Positions 1-17,679 of a DNA stretch of 37,712 bases are shown piece after piece. This DNA is from a bacterium. Lineage in GTDB: Bacteria; UBP14; UBA6098. Where the stretch lies: the NCBI GenBank assembly GCA_023145965.1, contig JAGLDC010000061.1, forward strand, positions 1-37,712. The letters are read 5' to 3'. The position numbers and the translations under genes are program-made. Positions within the stretch are counted from its first letter, which is position 1. Each line of letters starts with the position of its first letter. Under the pieces are notes generated by a model that worked only from the letters and a program-made list of their open reading frames with translations, was not told the DNA's origin and ran no database searches.

Positions 1-152
1 CGGCGTTCGGTGTTAATCTTTTCGAAAAGTTCGTCTTGCCAGGTCTGGAGTTCAATCCAGCTCGCAGGCGAACTTCCACCGCAACCCGTAACAGCGAGTA
101 TAGCCGCTACAATCATTATTACAGAGAGTTTTACCCCACTGTAAATCCTCAT
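1..152 (-). CDS. CAP/SCP-domain-like lipoprotein, N-terminal fragment (runs off the window)
   Basis: Only the first 50 codons are present, and the gene continues beyond base 1. The start ATG is at 152-150, directly after the stop of the upstream barrel gene (154-156), so it is probably the last visible gene of the 6193-to-1 cluster. The N-terminus is a basic stretch, a hydrophobic core and a lipobox ending in VTGC (Cys 24), so the mature protein should be a lipoprotein. The final visible residues, ELFEKINTERR, resemble the opening helix of CAP/SCP-family domains, which commonly read as a Leu-rich helix followed by iNeeR. The lipoprotein call is fairly safe. The CAP call rests on about eleven residues and needs the downstream sequence. 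Confidence 0.6.
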   Translation of the reverse strand, partial: MRIYSGVKLSVIMIVAAILAVTGCGGSSPASWIELQTWQDELFEKINTER

Positions 153-153
153 T

Positions 154-1389
154 TTAAAGATCGACAGCAACCGTGAATCCTCCGACTAAAAGAGATTCGT
201 TGACCCTGTCCATATCCTCTCGGTTAGCTGTTTCATAAGGCGATGGTAACCACGATTCCGGAAATTGGTCGTGCTGATAATATGTGCTCATCTGATAACC
301 ACCGAATACATCCACTTTGACTTTCCCAAACGCAACTCCGCTTCCAAGAGTGAAACCGGTTCTCACTACCTGATCGACAAGTGGTATCCTGTAATGATAA
401 GCTCCGAGTCGCAACGGAATATTGTTAGCTAGCTTGTGTTCCAGTCCAATGCGGAATTCCCAGGAATCCTCAAGTTGTGCAAATGCGCTATCTTCCTCAG
501 CCAGAGCAGAATAGCCTACGAACTCGAACTCAACCACAGCTCGGCTTACGACATAACCGGGTGGGCGATAACCTATACCGATCCCTATTCTCGAAGGGAG
601 AAAATCGGGGTAGAGGCTTTCTCCCAGATCGACCTCGGGAGTCCAGCGAAGACCGATCTGCCAGCGATCGGTAGGCGTAGCAACTGCGGAAAGCGAGATC
701 ATGGTGCCAGAAAGATCAGCGGAATAGACCGTGTCATCATCGAAAGCGGCTTCCCATGGCTCGGTATTGTGGACCACTGAGTCCTGCGCCTCGGGGCTAC
801 GATGCATTTCGATAGTGCCAGAAAGAAGCGTCGCTGAAATACCGATACTTCCATAATCGAGAATATCCTCGCGAACAGCAAAGGTTGGGCCGGCAAGCGC
901 TCCATCGGAATCTAAACTCCAGGTACCGATAAGTCGATCTGCATTAGGGTCTTCGCGCTGACGCACCTGTTCACGATAGATATATTCAGCATCGAACACC
1001 ACGGAATAACCCGCCGCAATCGTCGGTATCCAGTCGCCCTCGAAACCGTAAGAAACAAAACCACCAAAGGTGGGATATGTCTCTTTCATGCTAACATAAG
1101 GTGTCCATCCAACTCGATCTTCGAAGGAGTCGAAAAGCGGAAGTGCACGCTCTTCACTGGCGTTGATAAGATTCAGGTTTACGCCAATATTTATGCCATC
1201 ACGGGGGAGACAGGAAGGCGCCCAAAGTGCCGAAGCGGGTTCCTCCGGCGGAAGGACTTTAAGTCCACCCATCGCTGAAGTCGCAGCACTAGAGGGCATA
1301 ACTGGACCATCGAGAAAAAAAGCACCGTGATAGGTGTATCCCATCGCAATAAACGATAAAGCAGTAATTAATAAAATCGCTCTTTTCAT
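154..1389 (-). CDS. Outer-membrane beta-barrel protein (FadL/PorV-like)
   Basis: A 411-residue protein with an N-terminal signal peptide (MKRAILLITALSFIAMGYTY). An Ala/Ser-Thr-rich stretch (SSAATSAMGG, about residues 33-42) recalls the N-termini of PorV/UPF0164 and FadL-type barrels. The rest alternates aromatic, Gly and polar residues as expected for transmembrane beta-strands, with acidic loops. It ends in a hydrophobic strand (VGGFTVAVDL) suited to act as the outer-membrane insertion signal. A GAGG ribosome site precedes the start at a normal distance. It lies 16 bases after the helix-hairpin-helix gene on the same strand, so it is probably co-transcribed. Its cargo is unknown. It could be a transport barrel or a T9SS-linked scaffold barrel, and the sequence does not decide. 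Confidence 0.72.
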   Translation of the reverse strand: MKRAILLITALSFIAMGYTYHGAFFLDGPVMPSSAATSAMGGLKVLPPEEPASALWAPSCLPRDGINIGVNLNLINASEERALPLFDSFEDRVGWTPYVSMKETYPTFGGFVSYGFEGDWIPTIAAGYSVVFDAEYIYREQVRQREDPNADRLIGTWSLDSDGALAGPTFAVREDILDYGSIGISATLLSGTIEMHRSPEAQDSVVHNTEPWEAAFDDDTVYSADLSGTMISLSAVATPTDRWQIGLRWTPEVDLGESLYPDFLPSRIGIGIGYRPPGYVVSRAVVEFEFVGYSALAEEDSAFAQLEDSWEFRIGLEHKLANNIPLRLGAYHYRIPLVDQVVRTGFTLGSGVAFGKVKVDVFGGYQMSTYYQHDQFPESWLPSPYETANREDMDRVNESLLVGGFTVAVDL

Positions 1390-1405
1390 AAAACCTCGCT
1401 AAATA

Positions 1406-3814
1406 TCAGAAGAAATAATCCATTTGAATGCGCCATGAAGATGTAACCTCTTTGACACGCGTGCCCTCGATCTCGGACTCTGGATCGCCATAGCCACTAC
1501 GAAAATCGATATTCGAGGCCTCGAGTGGAGCATCGAGTGCAATCTTAAAGGTCAGTGATAAATTCTCGACCAGACGGTCGCGAAATGCAACCCACCAGTG
1601 AAGTGCGTCGATTGGGCTATCGAGTTCGGAGAATTCGTTATCCTCAAAATTCCATAACCAACCGCGATATACAATGGCTTGTCCGTTTATAGCAAGATGG
1701 TCGGAAAGGTTGATGTCGTAATTGAGCATAAGGCCTTCAGAAACATTTACCACACCACCAAGAAGTAAATCCTCGCCAAGTGGATCACCGCTACCGTAAT
1801 ACCTCGGTCGCGGAGGACTCCCTAGAAAACTGTGAATAAGCGTAAAACCGAGACGTGAGTAGTTTGCAAGCCTCGTGTCTGCGGTAAGTCGGATTTCGTC
1901 AACCGTGAAGGCTGTCGGTGTAAGTGAATTTTCCTCGCTACGACCCTGCCATTTTCTCCAGAGCCTGAAAGTAAGATTGTTATTCGGGCGCCAGTTAGTT
2001 TTGAGAACTATCCTGCGATAGTCGGTCATATCTGAAAGACGTGTAAAAGCATCGAACTCAAGCGTGCCATCAATCTGGCGGAACGGTTTACCATAAAGCT
2101 CAAGATATAATCCCTCTTCGGCCATAGGCCGAGGATTTTCCTCTGCGAGAACAACCATATTTGGATCGACGAGGCGGTAGTCATCCTCGATAAGAGAACC
2201 TTTGTAGCGAGCATATTCCGCGAAGCCGCGATTATAAGGGTTGTCAAAATCCAGATCGTAATGACGATATACCGCAACCGCCGAAAGCCTGTTAGAAGTA
2301 AAATGCGCTTTCGCTACGAGACCATAAGGATCATCGCCGATAGGAAGAAAACTAGTTTTTTCTCCGCTTATTGTGTCGATAATACCGTTTTCATACCAAT
2401 TTAAGGCAATATTGCTATCTCTAACTATTTCGGAAAACTCAGCGGAAAGCGCAAGATTGCCGATAGTCCATAATCCATGGATACCGACAGCCGAGCGATT
2501 ATCCTGTGGAAACGTCATACTGAAAAGCTCGGCGTCGCGCTCATCCACCTTTACGCTTGTGCCACCGGGGATATAATCGGGATTGATAATCGAACCGGGC
2601 TGTGGATCCCAGGTCTTGTCGTAATTCGCACGATAACCGGTAACGCCGATTCGGAGATTTAAAAGCGGCGAAAATGTCAGATCACCGGCAAACATAGTCT
2701 CATGCACCTGATTCTCCCAATCTTTCGCACCTGAGATGAGATCGGTGAAACTGCCGTCTTCGTTAAGAATAGCATCTTTGTTCCTGCTCGAAACGAGTAT
2801 GGTCGGTTCGATGGATTTCCATTTAAGCTCAAGGGCAGTGCCGCGAAGAGCATAGGTCTCCGAGCTTGACAGGTCTGGATACACACCTAAATGGCGAACA
2901 TCGAAGCCGGTGCCTGTCCAACGCGGAACGAAATAATCTCCGGAATTAAATGTAACCCCTTCGCCAAAAGCTGCAGAATAATCCCCAATAACAAAGCTCC
3001 TGACCTTGACCGGCCCGAGCTGGTAACGCGTAAGGCCGCCATAAAACTTCATGTCTGGGTAATCGAACGGATTAGCCCAGTTGTTATGGTCGATATTCTC
3101 GCCCTCGCTGCGCCCAAAACGAAAACCCTCTGAGATTGGGCCGTTGTTCAGACGAATCTTGAGATATGACAACGGATTTATCTGATCGGAGGTGCCGGCG
3201 AAACGCGCTTGTGCATAGCCGCCGGTGAGCCAGTCTATCGGTCGCTGTTTACCATAACCGATATAAGTTCGCACCGAAACATAACCGCGCGCCGAAAGCC
3301 CGTTAACCGATCTAAGCTGGCGTCGGTCCTTAACCTCACCGATATCTCTTCGGTGCCGAAGAAGAGCAATGGCATCCGTAGAGGAAACATTCTGAAGCGA
3401 GACTAAATCGCGGTAATCGAGCTCGAGAAGCGTGGGCATAGTGCGTATAGCATCGACCCACATATCGACTACCTCGTCGGAGACACTTTCACCCGCCAGC
3501 CATTCGCCAACACGAAAATAAAGCGAGTCAATTCTGTCGAGTGCAGAGGTCTCACCAAGTTCCGCACCAATGCTTACAAGTGGTTTAAGTTTGGCAAATT
3601 CTTTGGGTGTGAAAACCCCGAGTTCGAGGAGATCATAAATGCTATTGAAACCCCCTCCAAAACGCATTCTCTCACAGATAGCATCCCTCTGTTCTGGTGT
3701 AATAGGAAGCTCGCCGAGGGTTGAGCAATCATTACCGGAAAGCTCGACCTGCGCACCAAAAAGCGAGACAACAGCCAAAAACAGCAATAATGTAGTTTTC
3801 TTTTTATTGTCCAA
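1406..3814 (-). CDS. Helix-hairpin-helix protein fused to a large outer-membrane beta-barrel
   Basis: An 802-residue protein. After a signal peptide (about residues 1-21) come two helix-hairpin-helix-like regions. One is at about 31-82 (LPITPEQRDAICERM ... YDLLELGVFTPKEF). The other, at about 126-187, includes LLELDYRDLVSL, DIGEVKDRRQLRSVNGLS and the GLSARG turn, and is ComEA-like in spacing. From about residue 198 to the end the sequence is beta-rich, with Tyr/Trp-flanked strands and acidic loops, and finishes with an aromatic strand (SSWRIQMDYFF) typical of outer-membrane barrels. Similar HhH-plus-barrel proteins of 650-850 residues are common in Bacteroidetes-like genomes, but no function is established that I know of. 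It overlaps the upstream barrel gene by 11 bases. HhH motifs often contact DNA backbone; a DNA role here is inference. Confidence 0.75.
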   Translation of the reverse strand: MDNKKKTTLLLFLAVVSLFGAQVELSGNDCSTLGELPITPEQRDAICERMRFGGGFNSIYDLLELGVFTPKEFAKLKPLVSIGAELGETSALDRIDSLYFRVGEWLAGESVSDEVVDMWVDAIRTMPTLLELDYRDLVSLQNVSSTDAIALLRHRRDIGEVKDRRQLRSVNGLSARGYVSVRTYIGYGKQRPIDWLTGGYAQARFAGTSDQINPLSYLKIRLNNGPISEGFRFGRSEGENIDHNNWANPFDYPDMKFYGGLTRYQLGPVKVRSFVIGDYSAAFGEGVTFNSGDYFVPRWTGTGFDVRHLGVYPDLSSSETYALRGTALELKWKSIEPTILVSSRNKDAILNEDGSFTDLISGAKDWENQVHETMFAGDLTFSPLLNLRIGVTGYRANYDKTWDPQPGSIINPDYIPGGTSVKVDERDAELFSMTFPQDNRSAVGIHGLWTIGNLALSAEFSEIVRDSNIALNWYENGIIDTISGEKTSFLPIGDDPYGLVAKAHFTSNRLSAVAVYRHYDLDFDNPYNRGFAEYARYKGSLIEDDYRLVDPNMVVLAEENPRPMAEEGLYLELYGKPFRQIDGTLEFDAFTRLSDMTDYRRIVLKTNWRPNNNLTFRLWRKWQGRSEENSLTPTAFTVDEIRLTADTRLANYSRLGFTLIHSFLGSPPRPRYYGSGDPLGEDLLLGGVVNVSEGLMLNYDINLSDHLAINGQAIVYRGWLWNFEDNEFSELDSPIDALHWWVAFRDRLVENLSLTFKIALDAPLEASNIDFRSGYGDPESEIEGTRVKEVTSSWRIQMDYFF

Positions 3815-4640
3815 AATCGATACCTATACTCGCGGCGTGTGAAAGAGGCAACGCCGGATGACTTTTTAACGCGTAATCGAAACGCGCGAATTTATATTTT
3901 AGGCCAACTCCCGCCGTAACCCGATCGGGATTGGTGACCGCGCCAAAACGGAAAGTAACTATCTCGTGCGGTGAAAAGGATATTCCGAGACCATAAGTAT
4001 AGCCGGCGATGCTTTCCCTGCGGACATGAAAAACCATATCCGTAGCATTATATGGAGAATACCCGATAGAAGCAGTTACTGCACGGGGTATCTCTATGTC
4101 TCCCTCTACACCAAGATTAGTGGCTGTTAGGTTTTCAGCGAAAATGGAAACCTTGGTCCTTTTATAGATCACTGCCTCACCTGCCATATCGAATGCAGCC
4201 CCTGCGCCGGAACCGAGATCCATACCTCCAATGCTTTTACCATAGGACAGCGAATAAAAGCTTCCTCTAACAGCGAGATTGAACTCAGTGTGTATGTCTG
4301 AAAAAACCGGTCTCGTATAGGCAAAACCGATACTTGTCTCGGTCGAGAGATCGCCAACTGATTGGCCTCCAAGCACCGCAGAAAAACGACCGATTTTTTC
4401 GTGTGACCAGGAAGCCCATGCTGAAAGTTGATCGAAATCGGAGTAATTGAAAGACCGAATATAACCGCCTCCGGCGGTAATTTCGCCCTTATAGAAAAGC
4501 GATGTAGGCCCGGGGCCGATAGCTGGGGATATATCGGCCATACCAATTGCAGCGGGATCGGGCGGAGGGACCTCGAACACTGCAAGAACTGACCCGACAA
4601 CAATAACTACGAAAATGGAAATAAGCCTAGTAGTCGTCAT
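3804..4640 (-). CDS. PorV-like outer-membrane beta-barrel protein
   Basis: A 278-residue protein with a signal peptide (about residues 1-21) followed by a PorV-like opening (DPAAIGMADISPAIGPGPTS), where the pattern of small residues around GMA is characteristic of this barrel class. Repeated Gly- and aromatic-rich strands follow (GFAYTRPVF, YSLSYGKSIGGMDLG, YGLGISFSP, AGVGLKYKF). It ends in SIGIDFGQ, a plausible barrel signal strand. PorV in T9SS shuttles cargo carrying C-terminal sorting domains to the attachment machinery. The gene directly upstream encodes a protein with such a tail and overlaps this start by 4 bases, which fits a cargo-barrel pairing but does not prove it. The other end overlaps the HhH-barrel gene by 11 bases. 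Confidence 0.7.
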   Translation of the reverse strand: MTTTRLISIFVVIVVGSVLAVFEVPPPDPAAIGMADISPAIGPGPTSLFYKGEITAGGGYIRSFNYSDFDQLSAWASWSHEKIGRFSAVLGGQSVGDLSTETSIGFAYTRPVFSDIHTEFNLAVRGSFYSLSYGKSIGGMDLGSGAGAAFDMAGEAVIYKRTKVSIFAENLTATNLGVEGDIEIPRAVTASIGYSPYNATDMVFHVRRESIAGYTYGLGISFSPHEIVTFRFGAVTNPDRVTAGVGLKYKFARFDYALKSHPALPLSHAASIGIDFGQ

Positions 4641-6193
4641 TTTAAAGCACTCCCAATAGCAATAGTTTTCTTAACTGACTCCCTAGAACCGGAAACTGGA
4701 ATGGACTCCAGCAATAGCATATAAACCCCCTCGCCTATGAGTTGGCTTGTTTCGTCCCTTCCATCCCAATCCATCGAGACCGTCGATGAGGGCGTGCCAT
4801 CATAGAGGGTTGTGACATTGCGCCCCATGCGGTCGAAAAGCCTTAGCACAGCACGACTACCCACAGGAACTGTGAACTGAACGTTCATATAATCGTCGCT
4901 TATGGGAACAAACACGCCCTGGGGAATTATTATCTCCGAGCTCTCCCCGGATGGCGGCGTTACAAACGGAACAATAACAATATCCTCCACCGAGGCAGGA
5001 AGTATCTGGAACTCGTCATTATAAACACCAGCAATACCATAGATAGTAATGCCGTCACCAATATTGATCGAATCTCCATCGAGGCCGGTCGTTGACCATA
5101 TGCGAGCCGAAACATAGACACCGCCATCATCGACAACCACATTCCAGTTGCCGTCTCCGGTGCCGTAGCGGTCGTAAACCGTTCCTTGAACAACCGTCCA
5201 GACGCCTTCCCAAGCGGCTGCATCCGAGATCACCGAAGAATAATCGAGCGGTGTGGGTAGAGTATCCTCGCCAACAATCTCCCAATCGGAGACCTCGATC
5301 TCAGTTGTGCCCAAATATTCGCTAATCGTGCCGGAAACTCGTGCCACAGCACCGCGAACAAGAAGGGATTCCATATCGGCAGTGAGACTCCATTCAAAAA
5401 GCTGTATTCCTTTACCGCTTTCGTCCTGAATGTAGGCCTTAAGCTGCGTAGTTTTAAGCGCACCGGCAGCGGCGGTAATAACACCCTCGACAACAACCTC
5501 ATCGAAGGCCGAAGGATCGGCCTGAATATCGGCTATCGGGATGACAAGCGTATCCGAAGGGCCGGAAGTATCGCTAGTATCAACCGTAGCTGAGATATCG
5601 TCATCACTACGCGGTTCCAAAACATATTCATTCCATGAATAGCTCATCATTCCGGTAATGGTCTCGATTGTATCGCCGGCGTTTGGGCTATAAGAATAGT
5701 CGAAGCCGCGCTTCACCTTCAAATTGCCCGTTACATCACTTATCTCCCAAAGCGAATCCACTCCCCCGACAACAACAACATCAGATAGAGTGACGAGAAC
5801 GCCTTCGAGAGCCTCGAAGGTGTCTGCAACACCACATGACGTAGGCCATGGATCGGGCACAGAACCTGTTGAGTCGCTCGAAAACGCGGTGATGGTCGTA
5901 AGCTCGGTGAGACCGTAATACTCATCGACTGTGGCAGTTATGGTAATATAATCGCCGAGACTCACTGAATTGACATAGTCGTAAACATAAACACCATGCC
6001 ACGGCCCCCCCTCCGAATCGGAGAGGTAATATTTGTCGCCGGAATATTCCGTAGCTGCAACAACCCCAGAAACCGTAACAACCTCGCCATCGTAGGGCGA
6101 GTCGCCGGACATGGAATACTGAATGTCGTAAACAGTCAGAGCCATGGAACTAACGACACACAAGATCAACAACATTAAAAAACACTTCTTCAT
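4637..6193 (-). CDS. Secreted protein with about four OB-like repeats and a FlgD-like C-terminal sorting domain
   Basis: A 518-residue protein. After a signal peptide (about residues 1-18) come about four related beta-rich repeats at roughly 20-110, 115-205, 215-315 and 320-400. Their recurring pattern is GxVVTVSGVV / YYLSDSxGG / GVYVYD / LGDYITITATV, which resembles the OB-like domain of YhcR-type nucleases and DUF5689-like domains. Examples are VTVSGVVAATEY with YYLSDSEGGP, and VVVEGVITAAAG with AYIQDESGKGIQLFE. No nuclease active site is visible. Residues about 430-518 form a FlgD-like/T9SS-type tail (AVLRLFDRMGRNVTTLYDG ... WDGRDETSQLIGEGVYMLLL). It is the first gene of the minus-strand cluster, with a promoter at 6237-6265. 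OB folds often bind oligonucleotides or sugars; the ligand here is unknown. Confidence 0.72.
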   Translation of the reverse strand: MKKCFLMLLILCVVSSMALTVYDIQYSMSGDSPYDGEVVTVSGVVAATEYSGDKYYLSDSEGGPWHGVYVYDYVNSVSLGDYITITATVDEYYGLTELTTITAFSSDSTGSVPDPWPTSCGVADTFEALEGVLVTLSDVVVVGGVDSLWEISDVTGNLKVKRGFDYSYSPNAGDTIETITGMMSYSWNEYVLEPRSDDDISATVDTSDTSGPSDTLVIPIADIQADPSAFDEVVVEGVITAAAGALKTTQLKAYIQDESGKGIQLFEWSLTADMESLLVRGAVARVSGTISEYLGTTEIEVSDWEIVGEDTLPTPLDYSSVISDAAAWEGVWTVVQGTVYDRYGTGDGNWNVVVDDGGVYVSARIWSTTGLDGDSINIGDGITIYGIAGVYNDEFQILPASVEDIVIVPFVTPPSGESSEIIIPQGVFVPISDDYMNVQFTVPVGSRAVLRLFDRMGRNVTTLYDGTPSSTVSMDWDGRDETSQLIGEGVYMLLLESIPVSGSRESVKKTIAIGSALK

Positions 6194-6450: not shown

Positions 6451-6469
6451 ATATTTTATGGAGAGAGAA

Positions 6470-6952
6470 ATGGCTTCAAGAAAAGACACATTAGCTGGAT
6501 TTCTTAAAACACTCAAATTCGAAAACAATGATATAAGAGATAGTTTTCAAAATAGATTTAGAATACAAAAATATATTTATCTTTTGCAAGAGTGGAAAGG
6601 TTATAACTGGCGATATAGTTATAATGTTTATTTAAGCGGCCCATATTCGACAGAACTAGCAAAAGAGGTTTATCAGGTATTAGATGAAGATATTATAAGT
6701 AATACAACTACAAAATTACCGCAGCCTTTTTGTGAAGATTTGAAGGAAATTCAAGCTCTAACAAATTCGGATGAGCAACTCGAAGCGCTCTCGACCCTTT
6801 TATACATCTCAAAATCTTTTCAATTGGTTACTAAAGAATTAGACAAAATAAAAAGTTACGCATTATCTCGTTTTAGTTCTGTAAAACCCTTTATATCAAA
6901 CGATGTTAGAGATGAAGCTTGGAGCATAATCGAAAATAAAAAAATGCTATAA
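6470..6952 (+). CDS. YwgA-like / Panacea (DUF4065)-like small protein
   Basis: 160 residues from the ATG at 6470, which has GGAG at 6460-6463 six bases upstream. An ATG at 6458 in the same frame would overlap this ribosome site and is less likely. The core RFRIQKYIYLLQEW ... YNVYLSGPYSTELAKEVYQVL (about residues 25-70) matches the pattern QKxxYLxQ...YxxxxYGPYSxxL shared by Bacillus YwgA and the SocA/Panacea fold. Panacea domains act as antitoxins or chaperone adaptors in many toxin-antitoxin pairs. From memory, B. subtilis ywgA lies next to ywfO, an HD phosphohydrolase gene, and the same pairing occurs here. No signal peptide or membrane segment is visible, so it should be cytoplasmic. The gene is markedly A+T-richer than its neighbours. 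The exact family is uncertain. Confidence 0.6.
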   Translation: MASRKDTLAGFLKTLKFENNDIRDSFQNRFRIQKYIYLLQEWKGYNWRYSYNVYLSGPYSTELAKEVYQVLDEDIISNTTTKLPQPFCEDLKEIQALTNSDEQLEALSTLLYISKSFQLVTKELDKIKSYALSRFSSVKPFISNDVRDEAWSIIENKKML

Positions 6953-6954
6953 TT

Positions 6955-8406
6955 GTGGATGAGCTAAAACTCACACACCGTATATTGGACAATCTATACG
7001 GTTTAATATATCTATCCGATCTTGAAATTGAGCTAATAAATACCCCCCAGTTTCAAAGACTAAGGAAAATCAAACAACTTGGAGTCGCCGATTTAGTCTT
7101 CCCGGGTTCCCAGCACACGCGCTTTAGCCATTCATTAGGTGTTTTAGAAGTGACCGAGAAGGTATTTAAAAACATTAGGAGAAACTTGCCAGATGGTTAT
7201 TCTGAGGATGATCTCGAATATGACAGAAAAAAACTCAGGATAGCTGCTTTATTGCATGATATTGGCCACTATCCTCTTTCCCACACTTTAGAATCCGCTT
7301 ATCAAAAATATACTTATTACGAAACTAAATATCCAAAAAATGGAATATTAAAACAAGAAAATGCGTTAACCTTAACGAAAAAAGACCTTCATCACGAGTA
7401 TATTGGCAAACACATTATTGAAAATTGCACAAACATCAAGAGTATTTTAAAGAAAGAGTTTTCAGAGCAAGATATCGAAGATATTTCAAACACTATTATT
7501 GGTGATTTGATACATGAAAGGCCTTTTTATGCTCATATTTTACATTCGGACCTAGATGTCGATACATTAGATTATTGCCTTCGGGATTCCGACGGAACGG
7601 GCATAGCCTACGGGAAATATGATATTAATTATCTTTTGGATAATGTTGTCCTACACTCGATAAATGATAAATTTGTTATTTGTTTTAAGGAAAAAGCGAT
7701 ACACACTATCGAACATTTTTTACTCGCTAAACACTTCTATTACCTTCAAATACTATACCATCCCAAAAGATTATTCTTTGAGGAAACCGCAACCCGATTC
7801 GCCATAGAAGCGATAAAAATCGGATGGTTACCGTCTCCAAAATCTTACAGAGACAAAATTATTGAAATAGAAGGTACATTTTATAATGATAATTATTTCT
7901 GGGACTTATGCTCAAAAGCATATAAAAATAAAACAATAAAGGACAATAAACCAACACCAGCGATGCATATCTATTCAAGAATTCTCTTTGAAAGACTCGC
8001 ACCTAAAAATTGTTTAAAAATCGAAAAAATGAAAGAAATAAATGAAACGGATCGCGATCCTAATAACATTTGGAAAAAACTTAAAGAAAGCGTTTTAGAA
8101 AAAAGAGTTATAGAAAGAGAATTTACTTTTCTTGATTATAAATTTAAATTCGACAAGATAACAAATGACACTTTTGGAAGGTTTTATAATTATTTCAATA
8201 TTACAAAAACAACCCAGGAATACCGTAATTCGTTAGAAAAAAGACAAAGTAAGGTTCAAAATAACGAATTCCTTATTCAATCACGTGATTCGATCAAGAT
8301 AATCGACGAAAAAGGAAATATAGACTTTTTATCGAATAATAAAGACTCTTTGGCTTATATTTTAGCAAAAAATAAAATCGGTATTTATTTGGATTTTGGT
8401 GATTAA
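6955..8406 (+). CDS. HD-superfamily phosphohydrolase (YwfO/dNTPase-like)
   Basis: 483 residues from a GTG start two bases after the upstream stop, implying translational coupling. There is no good separate ribosome site. The HD signature is complete: HTRFSHSLGV (H54, H59), HDIGHYPLSH (H101, D102, H105), HHEYIG (H146, H147) and DLDVDTLDYCLRD (about 199-211) supply the expected metal ligands. The N-terminal LINTPQFQRLRKIKQLG is typical of the dGTPase/SAMHD1-like and YwfO-like branch. These enzymes hydrolyse nucleoside triphosphates or related phosphoesters; the substrate here is unknown. The C-terminal third (about 330-483) is Lys- and Asn-rich and unassigned. Paired with a YwgA/Panacea-like gene and very A+T-rich, it looks horizontally acquired. 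A defence or toxin-antitoxin role is inference. Confidence 0.82.
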   Translation: MDELKLTHRILDNLYGLIYLSDLEIELINTPQFQRLRKIKQLGVADLVFPGSQHTRFSHSLGVLEVTEKVFKNIRRNLPDGYSEDDLEYDRKKLRIAALLHDIGHYPLSHTLESAYQKYTYYETKYPKNGILKQENALTLTKKDLHHEYIGKHIIENCTNIKSILKKEFSEQDIEDISNTIIGDLIHERPFYAHILHSDLDVDTLDYCLRDSDGTGIAYGKYDINYLLDNVVLHSINDKFVICFKEKAIHTIEHFLLAKHFYYLQILYHPKRLFFEETATRFAIEAIKIGWLPSPKSYRDKIIEIEGTFYNDNYFWDLCSKAYKNKTIKDNKPTPAMHIYSRILFERLAPKNCLKIEKMKEINETDRDPNNIWKKLKESVLEKRVIEREFTFLDYKFKFDKITNDTFGRFYNYFNITKTTQEYRNSLEKRQSKVQNNEFLIQSRDSIKIIDEKGNIDFLSNNKDSLAYILAKNKIGIYLDFGD

Positions 8407-9012: not shown

Positions 9013-12000
9013 CTATTTGTTCACCGAAATTGTGCCGTTACATATAGCCTCACCATCTTGTTGAATTACATAAAGATATAATCCCGGACGGACAGAAATA
9101 CCATTTCTGTCCTTGCCATCCCAGAAACGGTTGGTTACATCTGTCAACTCCTCTATCGGACCGATTGTAGAACTATAGACTAGAGTATTTCTAATATCGA
9201 ATATAAAAAGCTCTGCTGAACCCGAAAACATGAGCGGATAATCGAACACTGCGGCATCATTGATACCGTCACCGTTTGTAGTTATAGGATTGGGATAGAT
9301 ATTACATGTAATCTTGGGTTCCATCACGAACCACCACGAGAAAGCGCTAAGATTGGATTCGCAAAGATCAGGATTATCACCAGCATATGCAGTAATTCTA
9401 ACCGTATCGCCTGCAACAAACTCGACATCAGATGCCGCTGCATCGAAAGATAACCTACCCTCCTCGTAATTAAGCTCACTCAAGGATAACTCATAATGAT
9501 TGCCATAAACATCCATGGCGAGTTCGCTTTCACGAATGCCCGCAAGGTTATCCTCTATATCGACCCATATAGGCGACCTACCATCGCGGATAAGATTTGC
9601 CGAAGCCGGGAAGTTATTGCTGAAAGTCGGTGGCTCGAGATCGACAAGCCAGTTATAGCTCAAGGTATCCCACATCGGGTTGCCAAGACTATCCTCCGCT
9701 AGAGTTAACATTACAGTAACAATCTGCTCATTCGCCCAGAAATCGACACCGGGCGCAAAGGTTATTTCGCCAGCGGCGCCATCGTAGGACAGCCTACTAT
9801 CCGGCCAGATTATTTGCTGACCTGCTATTACAAGAACCATCGGCGAAGGATCGACACCATCGGGATCAACAAGCTCGATCACGATTGGCTGGTCGGCACA
9901 AGAGGATATCTGTCCCGGAAGAGGTGTTATCGGTGCGGCTGTGGGCCCGCCCAATATTTGACATATACTATCCGCAAAGATCGTTGTTCTGTCGAGCGGA
10001 TTAAGGAAATCGAAGTCATTATCTGTCGAGGTAATCCTGTAAGAAATATTAGTTGTCGAGATGAAGGTGCCAATCGCCGACGTCGTCCGCCAGAGCCACC
10101 CACCCTCGATAGCATCCCAACTTCCCGCCAGCGAATCCATAGGCACCGGGCCGTTGGCATCTATATCTACCTCGCCGTCGGTGTCCCAAATAAGTTCGGC
10201 TCCGAACACACCGCTCGGGTCGGTTATCCTAGCCTCAATAAAGACAGGTATCTGTGTGCTTTCATATTCGGGGCGGAAATCGTAAATATTTGGACCGAGC
10301 GTATCGTCATCGCCAACAGAAAAATTCCAAGAAACACTGGAACTGTTGGGTTCACAGTAATCTGGCATATTGTCGAAAGCTGTTATAATAACACTGACAA
10401 TTCCAAACTCTGGGAAATAAATGCCCGTGCCGAGTGTATCCTCTGGCGCTGAATAGGTTATCCCGAATGCAGAGGCCATCACCGAAGCCGGATCGAGGGT
10501 TAACAGCGGTGCAACCCAATCAACACCATCTGCGGCCACACGAAGACTAATCGGAATTGCCGAACGATAGACACCATCGAGGCGAATATCGAGGCTATCG
10601 GCATCTACACCGAGAATACTATCTGTAACATCGATAGAGATCGTTTGCTGCCAATCGAGCGTGATAAAGCCATCAACAGGATACAACGATGCAAACTGCG
10701 GGGGGGTTAAATCCATGGTGAAACTCCATGACACCGGTGCCCCGGCGAGGGGGTTTCCGAGCATGTCGTCTGCAGAAATCAAACTAACATTCACAAGACC
10801 ATCTGACCAGACTGATGGAGGTGTCCATGTCAGAGTCGGATCGTCCAAATCGAGCTCATCGTCAGAGGTCGTATAAACAACACCGCCAACCTCAAGCTGG
10901 ATTGTTGTTTCATCTACACCATTGCTGTCAACGAGGGTAACAATAATCTGTTGAAGGCTGCATGCACTGACTGTGCCGTCGAGCGGTTCTATGATAGTCG
11001 CTATCGGCCCACCGGTAGCTATACTAAATCGCCAACAATGCAAGCTATCATTAGGTGGACAATAATCGGGATCGTCGCAAGCATGAACACAAATATCGAT
11101 ATTGTCACCACCGCTGAAGAATAGACCGGCATCTGAGCAAGAAAGAGCCATTATCTCGCCGTCCCATGAAATGTCCGGGGAAGTTAGATTGAAGATAATC
11201 GAATCGTTCAAGGTCATCCAAAGGCAACTATCGGCTAAACCTGCAATCGAATCGGCGATGTGAACCGATATATCCGGCGAAGGATTATCTATTATTGCAA
11301 AAGGTGCAGGAGTCCTCGACCAGAAGGCTGGTGGTGTGAGGTCCATCCAAAACCACCAATCGAGTGGAGTCACAAGTTCATTCCCAAGCAAATCATCTGC
11401 GGAAACAAGCTCGACATGAACCGGGCCATCAGCCCAAATCGAGGGTGGTGTCCATATAAGTGTAGGTTCATCCCACTCTATTCGCAGACTGCCCACACGA
11501 TAATCTATCCCATTGACACGCAATAGAATAGTCGAATCGGAAATACTGTTCGAGTCCTCTATTGTTACTATTATCTGCTGAAGACTACACGCACTGACTG
11601 TGGAGTCCAACGGCTCGATTATCTCCGCAATCGGCCCTCCGCGACTAATAACAATTGTTCGGCAATAGGTCGTGTCGTTGGCATCGCAGTAAGGGGCCAC
11701 AGTATCCGGAAGGTCGGCAATTCCGAGGCAAAGCTCGATACTATCACCGCCAGTCCAAAGAATTCCTAGGCTGTCGGGATCGAAAAGAAGCGTATCACCA
11801 TGCCAATATAAAGCCGGAATCAATAGATCGATTACACCGTATCCCTCAACATCGAGCGAAGCCGAGTTATAATCGATACCGGCTGGTGTGTCCTCGAGTA
11901 TAAGGGTAATTAACGGGCTTCTGTCATCCACCGGCACACCGGGAGTCGGAGATACTGAAATTAAAACCGGCGGTTGGTAATCTACAATGAAACTCCAACC

Positions 12001-15000
12001 AAGAAGTGTCTCCAGCGGATTACTAAGAACATCAGAGGCTGCAAGTAGTGAGCAAACAACTGTCGAGCCATGAGTGAAAAATCCCGAACCACCATCGAAG
12101 GTCAACGACGGCTCCGACCAATCCAATTCTGGGTCATCAGCTGTATAACTTAAGCCATTTACCTCGAAAACAATAGAATATCCATCGACACCATTGGAAT
12201 CAAAGATAGAAATAACAATATCTTGAGGATCACAACTCGTTATAATCCCATCTGTTGGGTGAACTATTGTGCCTGCCGGTCCCCCCGGCTCTATATCGAA
12301 ACTCCAACATGTATCAAGAACATTCGGACCACAATAATCAGGTAAATCCTCGGCATAAACGCAAATATCAATAACACTCCCACCCACGACAGTAATAACA
12401 TCGCAGAGATCGAAGCTAAAATTACCTCCTGCCCATACTACTCGACCATCCGAAATATCGAGATACTCAGAGCCATCAACAGTAACTTCGATGGAAGCTT
12501 CATAAAGACCGCTACCAAAGTCGGCTAAATCGAATGATATATTCGGGCATAACGATGCTACCACGCTTCCCGGTATCGGACTTATAGAGCTTATAATGGG
12601 CGCCTCGAAATCGATATTGAAAGTCCAAATAAGCGTATCCTCGTTTGGATTGCCAAAGCGGTCCTCGGCATAGAGCAAGGAACAAATTACGGCCGCACCA
12701 TCAGACCAGTCACTCGATGGTGAATATATCAACGTATCCGGTCGGTATTCAAGTTCCGATGCAGTCGTCATGTAATGGACTCCATCTACACTGAAAATTA
12801 TTGTTCCGCCTATTACCGTATCTGGATCGCTAACCGTAAGAATTATCTCGCCCAAGTGACAGGCACTCCATGAACCATCCACAGGTTCGATGACAGTCGC
12901 CACAGGTCCTCCGGTCGGAAGGAAGAAAGTCCAACACGTATCGCCAGTGTTCGGGAGGCAAAAATCGGGTATATCGGAGGAGCGTATACATATTCTAACA
13001 GTATCACCGCCGGTAATAAATAATGGAATATCTATAATATTAGCTGAATATATACTATCTGTCCGACTAAACCATGATTCTGAAAGGTCGAACCACGACG
13101 TGTCTGATGAAGGAAGAATATCTACACCTATGAGAACCCCATCGAGATTTGTGCCAGCCGGCTCATCGGTAAGGTTAAATCCCACAACCGGTGTAAGAGT
13201 TCCAATACCTGAACCGGGAGCAGGTGCGAGCGAAAAAGCAAGCGGTGATTCAAGATCTATTTCGTATTCCCATGTATCGGTGCCATAGGCAAGTGGATTG
13301 CCAAAAATATCATCTGCAGAAATAAGTTCGACACGAACATGGGCGGCGTGTGTCCATAGAACTGAGGGTGCAAAGCACAATGTGTCGGAAATATAGTTCA
13401 ATTCCGGGTCGGCGGTGGTGTAATCAGTGCCATTAACGCGGAGGATTATACTCGATTCATCCAGACCGTGTGGTATATCTGAATCAAGAAGCTCGAGACA
13501 GAAACCCTGATCATCACAGGCGCTTACAGTATTCGCAAGGGCATCGCCGCTCGATGGATCGAAAATCATGCTATAAATCGGCCCCAATATATCGATATAG
13601 TAAACCCAACAATGCGTAAGCACATTTGGCGGGCAGTAATCCGGCGAATCGGCTGCGCCTATGCATATACGCACCGTATCATTATGGGAAAATACATAAC
13701 CTAGATCGGCGCAATCAACCGAACAGAAAAGGCTATCACCAGTAAATGCACCCTCGAAACCGGGATCACCAAAATAATGAGTCGTTCCGTTTATCGAGAT
13801 TGTGATAAGTGATATATCGAGCCCAGAAAGCCAATCTGCGAGCACAAATGTAAAGCTTGGTGAATCCAGGGCGAGAACGGTGCTGTCGATTGGATCGATA
13901 CCCCATATAACCGGTGGTGTCAGATCAACAATGAAATTCCAGTGAAGTGTATCGCCGAGTGGGTTCCCCACAAGATCGACACATTCTAGAAGACGCACGA
14001 GAATAGTATCGCCGTTATCCCAGAGAGTAGGCGAGGAATACGCGAGCGTATCACCACTCCAAATAACTGTGGAATCGTCGCCGTGGACATCGATGCCATC
14101 CACATTTAAAAGCACCGAAGAGTGATCGATGCCATCGGCATCGAAGATATAAACAATAATACCCTGATCGTCACAAGCAGAATAGGTCCATGGCAGTGGC
14201 TCGATTATCATCCCAATCGGCCCAAGCGGGTTAACTATAAAGAACCAACATGTGTCGAGAACATTAGCTGCGCAATAATCCGGCAGGTCATTAGCTGTAA
14301 TACATATTTCTACAGTATCTCCTATGTCGAAAGCCAGCCCCAGATCGAGGAAGGAAACCGATACATTCGGAGCAACATAAGAAACACCTGCGCTATAAAG
14401 ATCGAGTAAAATCGAATCGTTTATCGATATTATTACCGAAATCTCATCGAGGCCACTTAGTGAATCATATATGTTGAAACTAACCGTAGGGCTAGCCTCG
14501 GGAATCGTCGAACCGGCCGTGGGGATTTCCCCCCAGACCACCGGCGCTGAAATATCGACATACCAATCCCAGCAAACGGGAAGTGTATCGTTCACCACAC
14601 CATATATATCACAAACCGAATCGACACAACAGTGAAGCGTTTCGCCATCAGACCAGAGAGAAGGTGGAGTAAAACGAAGAGTATCATAGTAAAAATCAAG
14701 ATTAATACGATCCACCAAATATGTAATACCGTTGACACTAAATCGAATCGAAGAGGCATCGACAGAATCGTCATCGGTGATCATAACAAAAATCCCTTGA
14801 TCGTCGCAAGCGCTCCATAAACCATCGAGTGGTTCGATTATCTCGATATGCGGTGGAATGCAGGGCGCTGTGGAGAAACTCCAAACCTCACTAGTATCCG
14901 AACCGCAAAGGCCATGAACAATGATGGCCCAGGTATGCCTTTCACCGCAAAGAAAAGATTCGCTCCATCGCGTGCCGCTTAAACCTGCTGCAACCACAAA

Positions 15001-17679
15001 ACCATCGAGAATAACATCGTAGGTAATCGGAGGCGTTCCCGCCGATGCTGACCAGTTGAAAGCTATCAGAGCATCTGGAGTATGATCGGTGCTCCCATCG
15101 GCAGGTGCAATAAGGGTAGGAGCTATCGGTGGATAATCTACGAAAACCGTAGCCGAATCATAACCCTGACAACCGAACGGACTAGTAACAGTGCAGACAT
15201 ATTCTGTTGTATCTCTTGGGCTTACGAGTATTGGGTTCCCTACGAGACCACCCGGTTCCCATGAGAAGGTAGCGCCCGGTAGATCGGGCGATAAGATAGC
15301 GGTGAGCGTAGCACTGTCTCCGAAACATATAAATTGATCCTCAACAGTAAGAATCGGATTCGGATGAACTATCACCGAACCGGTATCTGAACCATCACAA
15401 CCGAAACTACTTGAAACAAAGCAAGTGTATGTCGTTGTGGTCCCTGGTGTTATTGTAATATCCTGAGTCGTGAAACCACCGGGTGTCCAGGAGTATGTGT
15501 AAGTCCCAGGGGGGGTTACATTCGCAGTAAGAGTGGCTGTTTCACCTTCGCAAATGTCCACCGGCGTAATATCTACCTCGGGATCAGGGTGAACATTAAC
15601 AGTCACCGGTGCAATTGCAATACAATCCTCAAGAGCAGTTATTTGGCAAGAATATGTCGTGGTCGTTGTGGGACACGCTGTTGGATTAGGCGAAGTTGGA
15701 TCTGAAAGGCCGGTAGTGGGCGACCATGAGTAATCATAAACCACAGGCCCAGCAGATGAACCGCTTCCTGTAACCGAAACATCGTCGATATACCAGCCAT
15801 CATCCGAGAATAAGAAGTCTGACTCGAACAGGAATCTTATATAGACTACATCGCCGCACCAACTCGAGATGTCTATCGTCTCATTAGTCCATCCTTGCGA
15901 GCCATGGTATGAATCCTCGAGAGACATAGGGCCGAACAGGTGCATGCCATCGTATCCTGGCATGTCAAGCATAAACCAGGGCCCCGTGGGAGACGTGCCA
16001 ATATAAACCTGACAACCATCGAAGCTTGCGGTGTAATATGAATGCCAGAAAGAAAGAGTAGCATTGCTGCAACCGGTAATATCCACACCGGGAGTAACAA
16101 GTGATGCGCTTTCACTGTTGTTGTAGGCCCCTCCGAGGTCGGTTCCCCAGCAGCGCGAGCCGGAATGAGCCGAGCCGGGGCCCGAGGATGGCGTTCCCCA
16201 CGCCCAATCATCGCTCGAACCAGAATGTGTCATCGACACAGAGGACTCAAAATCGCTCGACCAGCTTCCACAATCGTAACCACTTCCAATGGAATCCGGC
16301 CATGCAGAAAGCTCTGTGCAACCACCGGCGCAAATATCGGCATATTCCACAGTAGCATTAGCCCCGAAGTCTATGGTTTCCGGTATATTAATGCAGTAAT
16401 TCTCTATTTCAGGACCGCCTCCGGACCAAGTCGCAGAAATATTATAACACTGTGTTGTCCCATAAGCCGAAGGCGGAATGCTGACTGTCCATGTGGCCAG
16501 TGCGCTACCTCCATAACCGGCGATGGAACCGAGGTTTTGGGGGTTTGCCCCACTTGCAAGTGTAAACGGAGTTCCCGATAGATCGAGCGTCGCCTGAACA
16601 TTCAAAGCCGTCGAAGTCCCGATATTCGTGACAAATGCCTCCACAGTGAACGGGTTAGGAGTAATATCAGTACAACTGGTTTCAAACATAGGTGGAGTGT
16701 GATAAATTCTCAGCCCGGTTCCCGAAGTGATATCGCCGATACCATAATATGTAACAAATATAGCCGAATCCCCAGGGCACACATTGCGCGGATACCATTT
16801 TACCATAGTGGCAGAATCGCCATAAGAACTTCCTGTGTCTGTTACCCAGTCGCTATCTGCCCATCCGTTACCCACCGATGAAGGCCAATTGCCATACCAA
16901 AAAACATCGGGCATTACCGCTTCAAAACCGATAAGCACACCCAAGGCTGTAAGCACACCAGGACCAGGCGGATAGCCACCTTGGTAAGCACGCCAAGTAG
17001 GCGGAATATCCGGCGCAAAAAAGATCTCAGCAATACCTGTATAACCGTATGCGGTCGAAATCTCCGCGTAATCGTCATCATCGAGCATAGTATCATAATA
17101 CACTATGCAACCAACATCATGACAAGAACCATCAGCCGGTTTCATTACCGTCTTAAACTTAACCTGCTCATTCTCGCCAGGTGTTCCTCCAAGGCTAACC
17201 GGCGTAATTTCCTGCCTTATATAAACTCCGTGCCAGTTGTTCCATATAGAATAGACCGTCGAACCAGTCATATAATTCGAAGATGTATTGGGCAAACTTT
17301 CATCAGTTTTTGCGGAATAGCCATCTACATAATACATCACCCATTCAGTCCCCGGAGATCCGGGAAAAGAATACGTCAACCGAACATAGGAACCCCCACC
17401 ACCGGGATCTGCACCCTCATCGAATTCCCCCGATGTTTCATCGACATCGGCGCGAACCCAATTATTTCCAGACAACCAATCCATAGCCTCGGAAGGCCTC
17501 GCACGCGGAGACATGTCTTCAGGCTCTATAAAAAGATTGGCTTTCCACTCTTCATAAAGCGTTCGATCGCCAGAAATTTCAGGGGTCAACAGCTCCGATA
17601 TTTCGCTCCGAGAAGACGCGCTTAAAATTGAGCTGGATAGGATGAGTATGAACAAAAAAAACTTTATCAAAGCTTTCAT
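9013..17679 (-). CDS. Giant repetitive secreted surface protein with eight two-domain units and a CHU_C/FlgD-like sorting tail
   Basis: 2,888 residues. Residues 1-21 are a signal peptide. About 70-335 is a beta-rich domain I do not recognise. About 337-440 is CARDB-like (TPNPFTVEAFVTNIGTSTALNVQATL). About 470-635 is MAM/jellyroll-like (ATLSFWHSYY ... VYIRFLFESDFLFSDDGWYIDDVSV). About 640-850 holds three PKD/gliding-type Ig repeats (ICEGETATLTANVTPPGTY). About 852-937 is fibronectin-III-like. About 938-2784 consists of eight tandem units, each opening with EPLDGxxSACDDQxI and carrying DxDGVDxSSI, a DLTPP linker and DTVxICIxAxDxPDYCxPN. About 2785-2888 is the tail (NPITTNGDGINDAAVF ... FWDGKDRNGISVRPGLYLYVI), close to the gliding-motility-associated C-terminal domain. 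It is probably exported by T9SS and displayed or anchored, perhaps as an adhesin. Conserved Cys pairs in the units suggest extracellular disulphides. No catalytic motif was seen. Confidence 0.85.
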   Translation of the reverse strand: MKALIKFFLFILILSSSILSASSRSEISELLTPEISGDRTLYEEWKANLFIEPEDMSPRARPSEAMDWLSGNNWVRADVDETSGEFDEGADPGGGGSYVRLTYSFPGSPGTEWVMYYVDGYSAKTDESLPNTSSNYMTGSTVYSIWNNWHGVYIRQEITPVSLGGTPGENEQVKFKTVMKPADGSCHDVGCIVYYDTMLDDDDYAEISTAYGYTGIAEIFFAPDIPPTWRAYQGGYPPGPGVLTALGVLIGFEAVMPDVFWYGNWPSSVGNGWADSDWVTDTGSSYGDSATMVKWYPRNVCPGDSAIFVTYYGIGDITSGTGLRIYHTPPMFETSCTDITPNPFTVEAFVTNIGTSTALNVQATLDLSGTPFTLASGANPQNLGSIAGYGGSALATWTVSIPPSAYGTTQCYNISATWSGGGPEIENYCINIPETIDFGANATVEYADICAGGCTELSAWPDSIGSGYDCGSWSSDFESSVSMTHSGSSDDWAWGTPSSGPGSAHSGSRCWGTDLGGAYNNSESASLVTPGVDITGCSNATLSFWHSYYTASFDGCQVYIGTSPTGPWFMLDMPGYDGMHLFGPMSLEDSYHGSQGWTNETIDISSWCGDVVYIRFLFESDFLFSDDGWYIDDVSVTGSGSSAGPVVYDYSWSPTTGLSDPTSPNPTACPTTTTTYSCQITALEDCIAIAPVTVNVHPDPEVDITPVDICEGETATLTANVTPPGTYTYSWTPGGFTTQDITITPGTTTTYTCFVSSSFGCDGSDTGSVIVHPNPILTVEDQFICFGDSATLTAILSPDLPGATFSWEPGGLVGNPILVSPRDTTEYVCTVTSPFGCQGYDSATVFVDYPPIAPTLIAPADGSTDHTPDALIAFNWSASAGTPPITYDVILDGFVVAAGLSGTRWSESFLCGERHTWAIIVHGLCGSDTSEVWSFSTAPCIPPHIEIIEPLDGLWSACDDQGIFVMITDDDSVDASSIRFSVNGITYLVDRINLDFYYDTLRFTPPSLWSDGETLHCCVDSVCDIYGVVNDTLPVCWDWYVDISAPVVWGEIPTAGSTIPEASPTVSFNIYDSLSGLDEISVIISINDSILLDLYSAGVSYVAPNVSVSFLDLGLAFDIGDTVEICITANDLPDYCAANVLDTCWFFIVNPLGPIGMIIEPLPWTYSACDDQGIIVYIFDADGIDHSSVLLNVDGIDVHGDDSTVIWSGDTLAYSSPTLWDNGDTILVRLLECVDLVGNPLGDTLHWNFIVDLTPPVIWGIDPIDSTVLALDSPSFTFVLADWLSGLDISLITISINGTTHYFGDPGFEGAFTGDSLFCSVDCADLGYVFSHNDTVRICIGAADSPDYCPPNVLTHCWVYYIDILGPIYSMIFDPSSGDALANTVSACDDQGFCLELLDSDIPHGLDESSIILRVNGTDYTTADPELNYISDTLCFAPSVLWTHAAHVRVELISADDIFGNPLAYGTDTWEYEIDLESPLAFSLAPAPGSGIGTLTPVVGFNLTDEPAGTNLDGVLIGVDILPSSDTSWFDLSESWFSRTDSIYSANIIDIPLFITGGDTVRICIRSSDIPDFCLPNTGDTCWTFFLPTGGPVATVIEPVDGSWSACHLGEIILTVSDPDTVIGGTIIFSVDGVHYMTTASELEYRPDTLIYSPSSDWSDGAAVICSLLYAEDRFGNPNEDTLIWTFNIDFEAPIISSISPIPGSVVASLCPNISFDLADFGSGLYEASIEVTVDGSEYLDISDGRVVWAGGNFSFDLCDVITVVGGSVIDICVYAEDLPDYCGPNVLDTCWSFDIEPGGPAGTIVHPTDGIITSCDPQDIVISIFDSNGVDGYSIVFEVNGLSYTADDPELDWSEPSLTFDGGSGFFTHGSTVVCSLLAASDVLSNPLETLLGWSFIVDYQPPVLISVSPTPGVPVDDRSPLITLILEDTPAGIDYNSASLDVEGYGVIDLLIPALYWHGDTLLFDPDSLGILWTGGDSIELCLGIADLPDTVAPYCDANDTTYCRTIVISRGGPIAEIIEPLDSTVSACSLQQIIVTIEDSNSISDSTILLRVNGIDYRVGSLRIEWDEPTLIWTPPSIWADGPVHVELVSADDLLGNELVTPLDWWFWMDLTPPAFWSRTPAPFAIIDNPSPDISVHIADSIAGLADSCLWMTLNDSIIFNLTSPDISWDGEIMALSCSDAGLFFSGGDNIDICVHACDDPDYCPPNDSLHCWRFSIATGGPIATIIEPLDGTVSACSLQQIIVTLVDSNGVDETTIQLEVGGVVYTTSDDELDLDDPTLTWTPPSVWSDGLVNVSLISADDMLGNPLAGAPVSWSFTMDLTPPQFASLYPVDGFITLDWQQTISIDVTDSILGVDADSLDIRLDGVYRSAIPISLRVAADGVDWVAPLLTLDPASVMASAFGITYSAPEDTLGTGIYFPEFGIVSVIITAFDNMPDYCEPNSSSVSWNFSVGDDDTLGPNIYDFRPEYESTQIPVFIEARITDPSGVFGAELIWDTDGEVDIDANGPVPMDSLAGSWDAIEGGWLWRTTSAIGTFISTTNISYRITSTDNDFDFLNPLDRTTIFADSICQILGGPTAAPITPLPGQISSCADQPIVIELVDPDGVDPSPMVLVIAGQQIIWPDSRLSYDGAAGEITFAPGVDFWANEQIVTVMLTLAEDSLGNPMWDTLSYNWLVDLEPPTFSNNFPASANLIRDGRSPIWVDIEDNLAGIRESELAMDVYGNHYELSLSELNYEEGRLSFDAAASDVEFVAGDTVRITAYAGDNPDLCESNLSAFSWWFVMEPKITCNIYPNPITTNGDGINDAAVFDYPLMFSGSAELFIFDIRNTLVYSSTIGPIEELTDVTNRFWDGKDRNGISVRPGLYLYVIQQDGEAICNGTISVNK
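9330..14867 (-). repeat. Eight tandem protein-level repeat units within the giant surface gene
   Basis: Approximate unit boundaries are 14867-14224, 14223-13575, 13574-12905, 12904-12275, 12274-11640, 11639-11005, 11004-9940 and 9939-9330. Each begins with a sequence like EIIEPLDGxxSAC and ends with PDYCxPNxxDTCWxF followed by GGP. Most units are about 210-225 residues and contain two Ig-like halves. Unit 7 is about 145 residues longer. DNA identity between units is low by eye, so these are old, diverged duplications. Confidence 0.8.

Follow-up and report, generated by a model that had tools for sequence, protein, structure and literature searches.

Gene content of the cluster

Five minus-strand genes occupy the first 6.2 kb of the 37.7-kb stretch of DNA analysed here (the window, carried on contig C61 of a 2.5 Mb genome bin), as read from its open reading frames, and a first-pass annotation had placed all five correctly, together with their short overlaps and gaps. 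The genes for an OB-repeat protein and a PorV-like protein overlap by 4 bases, and those for the PorV-like protein and a barrel fused to helix-hairpin-helix (HhH) domains by 11 bases; 16 bases separate the HhH-barrel gene from a second barrel gene, and a single base separates the latter from a lipoprotein gene. These spacings are compatible with a single transcript. Signal peptides were judged by eye. The closest named relatives are MAGs of UBP14_UBA6098 and 'Candidatus Zixiibacteriota', with HhH-barrel identities of 77–79%.

The gene at 4637..6193 (−) encodes a 518-aa OB-repeat surface protein, a T9SS cargo with a signal peptide, two OB pairs and a C-terminal sorting domain. Pfam finds the OB fold tRNA_anti-codon (PF01336, E 1.7e-9) in two stretches, including residues 233–307, and NCBIfam finds the ExeM/NucH OB region (NF033681, E 1.3e-16); matches to DUF5689 and CHU_C/FlgD_ig are weak and under the Pfam cut-offs. 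For DUF5689 the score is 18.9 bits against a cut-off of 28.6 bits, and the orthologue L073 reaches 27.1 bits (E 4.8e-6) over almost the whole model. The AlphaFold2 model (pLDDT 83) has four five-strand OB-like units and an Ig-like C-terminal domain, in agreement with the roughly four repeats first proposed; its low pTM (0.42) is expected for a beads-on-a-string protein. Strand order in the model defines OB pair 1 (residues 19–205, 5579..6139) and OB pair 2 (residues 215–410, 4964..5551), and residues 424–518 (4640..4924) form the T9SS C-terminal domain (CTD), which ends in the operon-specific tail IAIGSALK.

The best Foldseek match of the OB protein in the PDB is p204 HINab bound to dsDNA (E 2.8e-10 over 434 columns), which is likewise built of two OB pairs; single HIN domains give TM-scores of ∼0.4. 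We read this model-based match as one of shared architecture, not as proof of what the OB protein does. Sequence searches of the PDB with the OB and HhH-barrel proteins gave no matches, nor did a plasmid search with the OB protein. Some orthologues carry lamin-tail or Ig-like domains. The EEP nuclease domain is absent by Pfam from the window's OB protein and from the orthologues and paralogues scanned, and no nuclease is encoded in the cluster. The OB proteins have a pI near 4, as do other secreted proteins of this genome.

The next gene (3804..4640, −) encodes a 278-aa outer-membrane barrel, assigned by its match to the PorV/PorQ family NF033709, by a profile match to a Bacteroidota counterpart (see below) and by position. 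Both it and the 411-aa second barrel fall under the curated cut-off of NF033709 (E 1.1e-3 and 1.6e-6; 18.6 and 28 bits, respectively, against 90 bits). The best orthologue scores 47 bits, and a PorV-like orthologue gives E 2.4e-12. Because the family scores stay below the cut-off, we use the name PorV-like.

The third gene (1406..3814, −; TTG start) encodes the 802-aa HhH-barrel protein, in which Pfam detects HHH_3 (PF12836, E 5.9e-7). Its AlphaFold2 model (pLDDT 83, pTM 0.80) shows two double-HhH domains at residues 31–184 and then ∼24 long strands, bearing out the proposal that two HhH regions are fused to a barrel. We delimit a double (HhH)2 N-terminal region (residues 22–190, 3245..3751) and, from DSSP of the model, an outer-membrane barrel (residues 195–802, 1409..3232). 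By established barrel topology, a domain N-terminal to a barrel with an even number of strands faces the periplasm, which is presumably where the HhH region sits. Against PDB folds the barrel matches only generic barrels with TM-scores below 0.5, giving no functional clue.

The HhH region is homologous to ComEA, by HHH_3 and by TIGR01259, which matches HhH-barrel orthologues under its cut-off (E 4e-10 and 3e-14); matches to T2SSK are weak. DNA-binding HhH motifs carry glycines in their hairpins. In the window-type family hairpins 1–3 read LPI[TS], NVS and GLS, so that the HhH fold is predicted and the canonical glycine pattern is missing, and in most members the domain carries a net negative charge. 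ComEA itself is a small periplasmic protein with glycine hairpins, whereas the region described here is glycine-poor and fused to a barrel; the small ComEA of the window's genome retains SIG and GIG hairpins. Since the hairpin glycines are lost and the domain is acidic, contact of the HhH region with DNA may be weak, or the region may serve in docking instead. Charge fails as an argument for DNA binding, as the acidic OB and HhH regions count against it. We also note a lone HhH-barrel gene elsewhere (L021, 5949-8273, G006:C11), which lacks both OB and PorV-like genes as neighbours and lies in line with genes of glycosyltransferase-like and apparent recF/dnaN type (neighbours named by eye).

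The second barrel (154..1389, −) is PorV/FadL-like, as judged from NF033709, from an orthologue's match to Toluene_X/FadL (E 1.4e-3) and from adjacency. The contig end cuts the last gene (1..152, −) after 50 codons, which include a lipobox, AVTGC; orthologues (L011, L012, L013) identify it as the start of a CAP-family lipoprotein, that of L011 matching Pfam CAP with E 9e-19. The annotation as a CAP-like lipoprotein therefore holds through the orthologues, although the window has only this short start and CAP does not belong to the conserved core: CAP matches come only from the window's own family, and we rejected these genes as core members.

In sister genomes a second CAP gene and then a 5′-nucleotidase come after the CAP lipoprotein, the order in L011 being OB, PorV-like, HhH, barrel, CAP, CAP, 5′-nucleotidase. 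The nucleotidase occupies the same position in L012, read through its contig L028, and thus is present in both relatives of the same genus whose sequence reaches that far. Clustering of all neighbours places it 3′ of the cluster in 27 of 32 usable loci. It has Pfam domains Metallophos and 5_nucleotid_C and is UshA-like, and no T9SS signal was seen in the copies read. The contig end hides the window's own copy.

Upstream of the cluster, an AT-rich two-gene island at 6458-8406 (+; GC ∼0.33–0.35 versus ∼0.48) lies between two T9SS cargo genes. One of its proteins (164 aa) has a weak PADLOC likeness to the C-terminal part of DarG and to PDC-M19A, and the other (483 aa) is a dGTPase-like HD phosphohydrolase; the island is possibly toxin-antitoxin or defence cargo. 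The gene at 9013-17679 (−) encodes an acidic surface protein of 2888 aa with repeated Ig-like-looking domains and a C-terminal CHU_C T9SS signal.

Conservation of the module and its T9SS cargo

A profile scan of GTDB genomes recovered 50 loci, in records titled UBP14, UBP2, Zixibacteria, KSB1, Calditrichaeota and Cloacimonadota, among others, and in WOR-3, Krumholzibacteria, Eisenbacteria, Latescibacterota, Coatesbacteria and Edwardsbacteria records. MAGs from ∼12 candidate phyla show the same order: OB, PorV-like, HhH-barrel, second barrel. Where the contig leaves room, a PorV-like gene adjoins the HhH-barrel gene in 35 of 42 loci (the other seven have no PorV-like neighbour), the OB gene adjoins the PorV-like gene in 31/34, and a second barrel gene lies behind the HhH-barrel gene in 35/46. 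The co-occurrence of OB, PorV-like and HhH-barrel genes, named at the outset as a check, thus stands. Its recurrence in dozens of diverged genomes puts the arrangement far from chance, and the cluster is a genuine, deeply conserved outer-membrane module. Searches of the open-access literature turned up no system that matches it. A phage origin was rejected, there being no PHROGs match.

The OB protein had been proposed to be exported to the surface, and an Ig-like CTD together with the T9SS translocon SprA in the same genome (G000:C74, 602 bits including neighbouring stretches) fits a T9SS cargo. The Ig-like domain is seen in the model, and CHU_C/FlgD_ig matches, weak in the window protein, are stronger in orthologues. 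By profile, the window's genome has 75 CTDs, of which only that of the OB protein fits a CTD model of the operon through the last residue, the window sequence being itself one row of that model. The tail pattern of the operon (like IVVGTPLK) occurs in 30/31 operon OB proteins and in 0/26 other CTD proteins, the latter drawn from the same loci and the window, and the pattern having been chosen after the tails were seen.

Full-length HhH-barrels are present in 27 genomes of a set of 193 from across Bacteria. SprA accompanies them in 26 of these 27 genomes, compared with 57 of the 166 others (Fisher p 4e-10, a test that counts genomes as independent, which related genomes are not). SprA is also found in same-phylum genomes that have no HhH-barrel; the cluster therefore uses the T9SS and is no core part of it, and we rejected the idea of a core T9SS component on this ground.

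For type B T9SS cargo, PorP/SprF proteins act as dedicated shuttles, and the pairing of a cargo gene with that of its cognate shuttle is well established for the T9SS (PMC12618676). Given an OB cargo with its own tail class and an adjacent gene, the simplest reading of the PorV-like protein is that it shuttles this cargo; it is probably a dedicated shuttle or anchor of the OB protein and a partner of the HhH-barrel. Of three outer-membrane barrels originally described, the barrels themselves were found, one of them fused to HhH, but the PorV-like protein reads better as a T9SS shuttle than as a third pore. As in the pairs SprB-SprF and type A cargo-PorV, a cargo gene is followed by a gene of the PorV or PorP family and the cargo has its own class of C-terminal signal (PMC12618676); the cluster differs in that its shuttle is PorV-like and not PorP-like, and in that the operon adds an HhH-barrel and a nucleotidase. 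In L062 (13096-15323), L066 (13097 onward), L068 and L073 a second cargo/PorV-like pair lies 3′ of the operon; its tails are of a different class (KTMVSR or KTMVAR), and in L062 and L066 its cargo is PHP-phosphoesterase-like by eye.

Bacteroidota homologues and linkage to comEC

A shorter HhH-barrel gave matches in 52 of 60 Bacteroidia genomes, and the Parabacteroides and Bacteroides copies are annotated only as 'helix-hairpin-helix domain-containing protein'. Profile matching shows that the Bacteroidota HhH-barrels are homologous to the window type along the barrel (615 columns, E 2e-44), and that their PorV-like neighbour is homologous to the PorV-like protein of the window (E 6.5e-42). In the family of genome G077, which belongs to Bacteroidota by GyrB, comEC lies directly 3′ of the HhH-barrel gene in 62 of 69 loci, mostly overlapping it or a few bases away; the seven loci lacking it come from a single genus, and the flank read for them was only 1.5 kb. 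A PorV-like gene lies 5′ in 61/69, often with an 11-base overlap as in the window. G077 itself has the HhH-barrel and comEC but no SprA match, and therefore the barrel there goes with comEC and not with the T9SS, whose involvement is not general.

The comEC link was first sighted in two genomes. It is kept across many genera of the G077 family, and the family survey excluded chance, for that clade only. The link is confined to one family, within the Bacteroidota subfamily of shorter barrels that has no OB gene, and is effectively a single evolutionary event. It has apparently been lost in most members of genus g239, family f65 (L188, L191, L193, L194, L197, L199, L203).

The window's genome encodes ComEC and a separate, small, canonical ComEA. 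ComEC occurs in all eight genomes of the window's phylum with an HhH-barrel and in five of the nine without (a sample of 17 genomes), and we rejected its presence as evidence, since at 177/193 genomes it is near universal and uninformative.

Two further arrangements involving com genes were observed. At L120 (4278-10481, G000:C60) comEC adjoins, and is in line with, a gene for a PorU-like C25 peptidase with a T9SS signal. L119 (8750-14492, G000:C1) and L024 (445-6640, G016:C165) share a conserved run of ComEA, pseudopilin, PilM-like, PilN-like and large outer-membrane protein genes, which ties ComEA to T4P-like and T9SS-like genes in one cluster; the large protein of L119 has PorP/SprF and OmpA domains.

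Proposed function and alternatives

Since relatives of two of its genes adjoin comEC in Bacteroidota, the cluster probably takes up outside DNA or its building blocks. We consider it the likelier function, albeit with considerable doubt, that the cluster captures DNA or its fragments at the surface and takes them up across the outer membrane, for food, transformation or both. The early suggestion that the OB and HhH folds point to nucleic acid gains from the comEC linkage, the 5′-nucleotidase, the ExeM/YhcR-type OB region and the co-occurrence of the genes, and loses from the acidity of the OB and HhH regions. With the hairpin glycines gone as well, the direct hand-over of DNA from OB protein to HhH region that was proposed with it did not hold up as more than a hypothesis.

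The module would belong to the envelope of diderm bacteria possessing a T9SS. The OB-repeat protein would leave through the T9SS and stay anchored to the cell surface by the PorV-like shuttle, where its OB pairs would bind nucleic acid, as in the substrate-binding part of the ExeM/YhcR nucleases. The HhH-barrel and PorV-like proteins would form the outer-membrane passage, under which the ComEA-related domain may take the DNA or dock the inner machinery, leading on to ComEA/ComEC. The periplasmic 5′-nucleotidase and the FadL/PorV-like second barrel could salvage nucleotides from the DNA.

YhcR joins OB domains to a 5′-nucleotidase. The OB pairs of the cluster, and the lamin-tail domains of some orthologues, resemble those of ExeM/NucH and YhcR, although here the OB protein has no nuclease domain and the functions are split over several genes that include barrels; ExeM without its OB region loses nearly all activity (PMC6085458). 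The cluster resembles ComEA/ComEC in its ComEA-related HhH region and in the homologous barrel that is co-operonic with comEC, and differs in that its HhH region is glycine-poor and joined to an outer-membrane barrel, the canonical ComEA being encoded separately. A further parallel is transformation in Bacteroidota without a pilus, which combines a surface protein of the OB-type DUF5689 family with a barrel in the outer membrane and an HhH protein. In the pilus-less Riemerella anatipestifer these three are essential for transformation (RA0C_RS04920/04915/02645), and it was concluded that a novel DNA-uptake machinery must exist (PMC8459023); the HhH protein PGN_0421 is also essential in Porphyromonas gingivalis (PMC11532111). 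Unlike in the cluster described here, the Riemerella barrel is joined to a carboxypeptidase-regulatory domain, the HhH protein, with three HhH units, is predicted to reside in the periplasm, and a PorV-like partner, an HhH-barrel fusion and a nucleotidase are undescribed in that system.

The main rival to DNA uptake is a T9SS accessory or attachment module with no part for nucleic acid, whose barrels and HhH region help to secrete, anchor or move the OB protein, with HhH serving protein-protein contacts as in GspK and the OB protein binding some other polymer. The OB protein's own CTD tail and PorV-like neighbour, the restriction of the HhH-barrel to T9SS genomes, the lost glycines and acidic domains, the T2SSK matches and the precedent of cognate cargo/shuttle pairs (PMC12618676) all suit such a module. 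We nevertheless think it unlikely, given the Bacteroidota comEC operon, including that of G077 with no SprA match, the conserved 5′-nucleotidase, and the same-phylum genomes in which SprA is present and the barrel is not.

Scavenging of nucleotides, nucleosides or NAD with no translocation of DNA would have the surface OB domains gather oligonucleotides made by other enzymes, the barrels act as selective pores and the 5′-nucleotidase strip phosphate. The nucleotidase in 27/32 loci and the FadL-like second barrel agree with this, and DNA-feeding bacteria do have periplasmic nucleotidases (PMC8289736), but a ∼24-strand barrel is large for nucleosides and the ComEA-type region and comEC linkage are left with no role, so that we judge it improbable. 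Adhesion to extracellular DNA in a biofilm, with no import, would account for a surface cargo with OB repeats and for the lamin-tail or Ig-like domains of orthologues; it needs no HhH-barrel, comEC neighbour or nucleotidase, and we give it very little weight.

Returning to DNA uptake, we tentatively advance a broader proposal, which we hold to be somewhat less likely than uptake as such: that the PorV-like/HhH-barrel pair is a pilus-independent outer-membrane DNA translocator common to Bacteroidota and many FCB candidate phyla, supplying the missing outer-membrane step there, to which T9SS lineages add a dedicated secreted OB-repeat DNA receptor and nucleotide salvage. For the passage of DNA across the outer membrane in competent bacteria that have no type IV pilus, the pair is a concrete candidate, its barrel being present in most of the Bacteroidia searched and its comEC operon in one family. 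DNA feeding would then be a possible common trait of many uncultured phyla.
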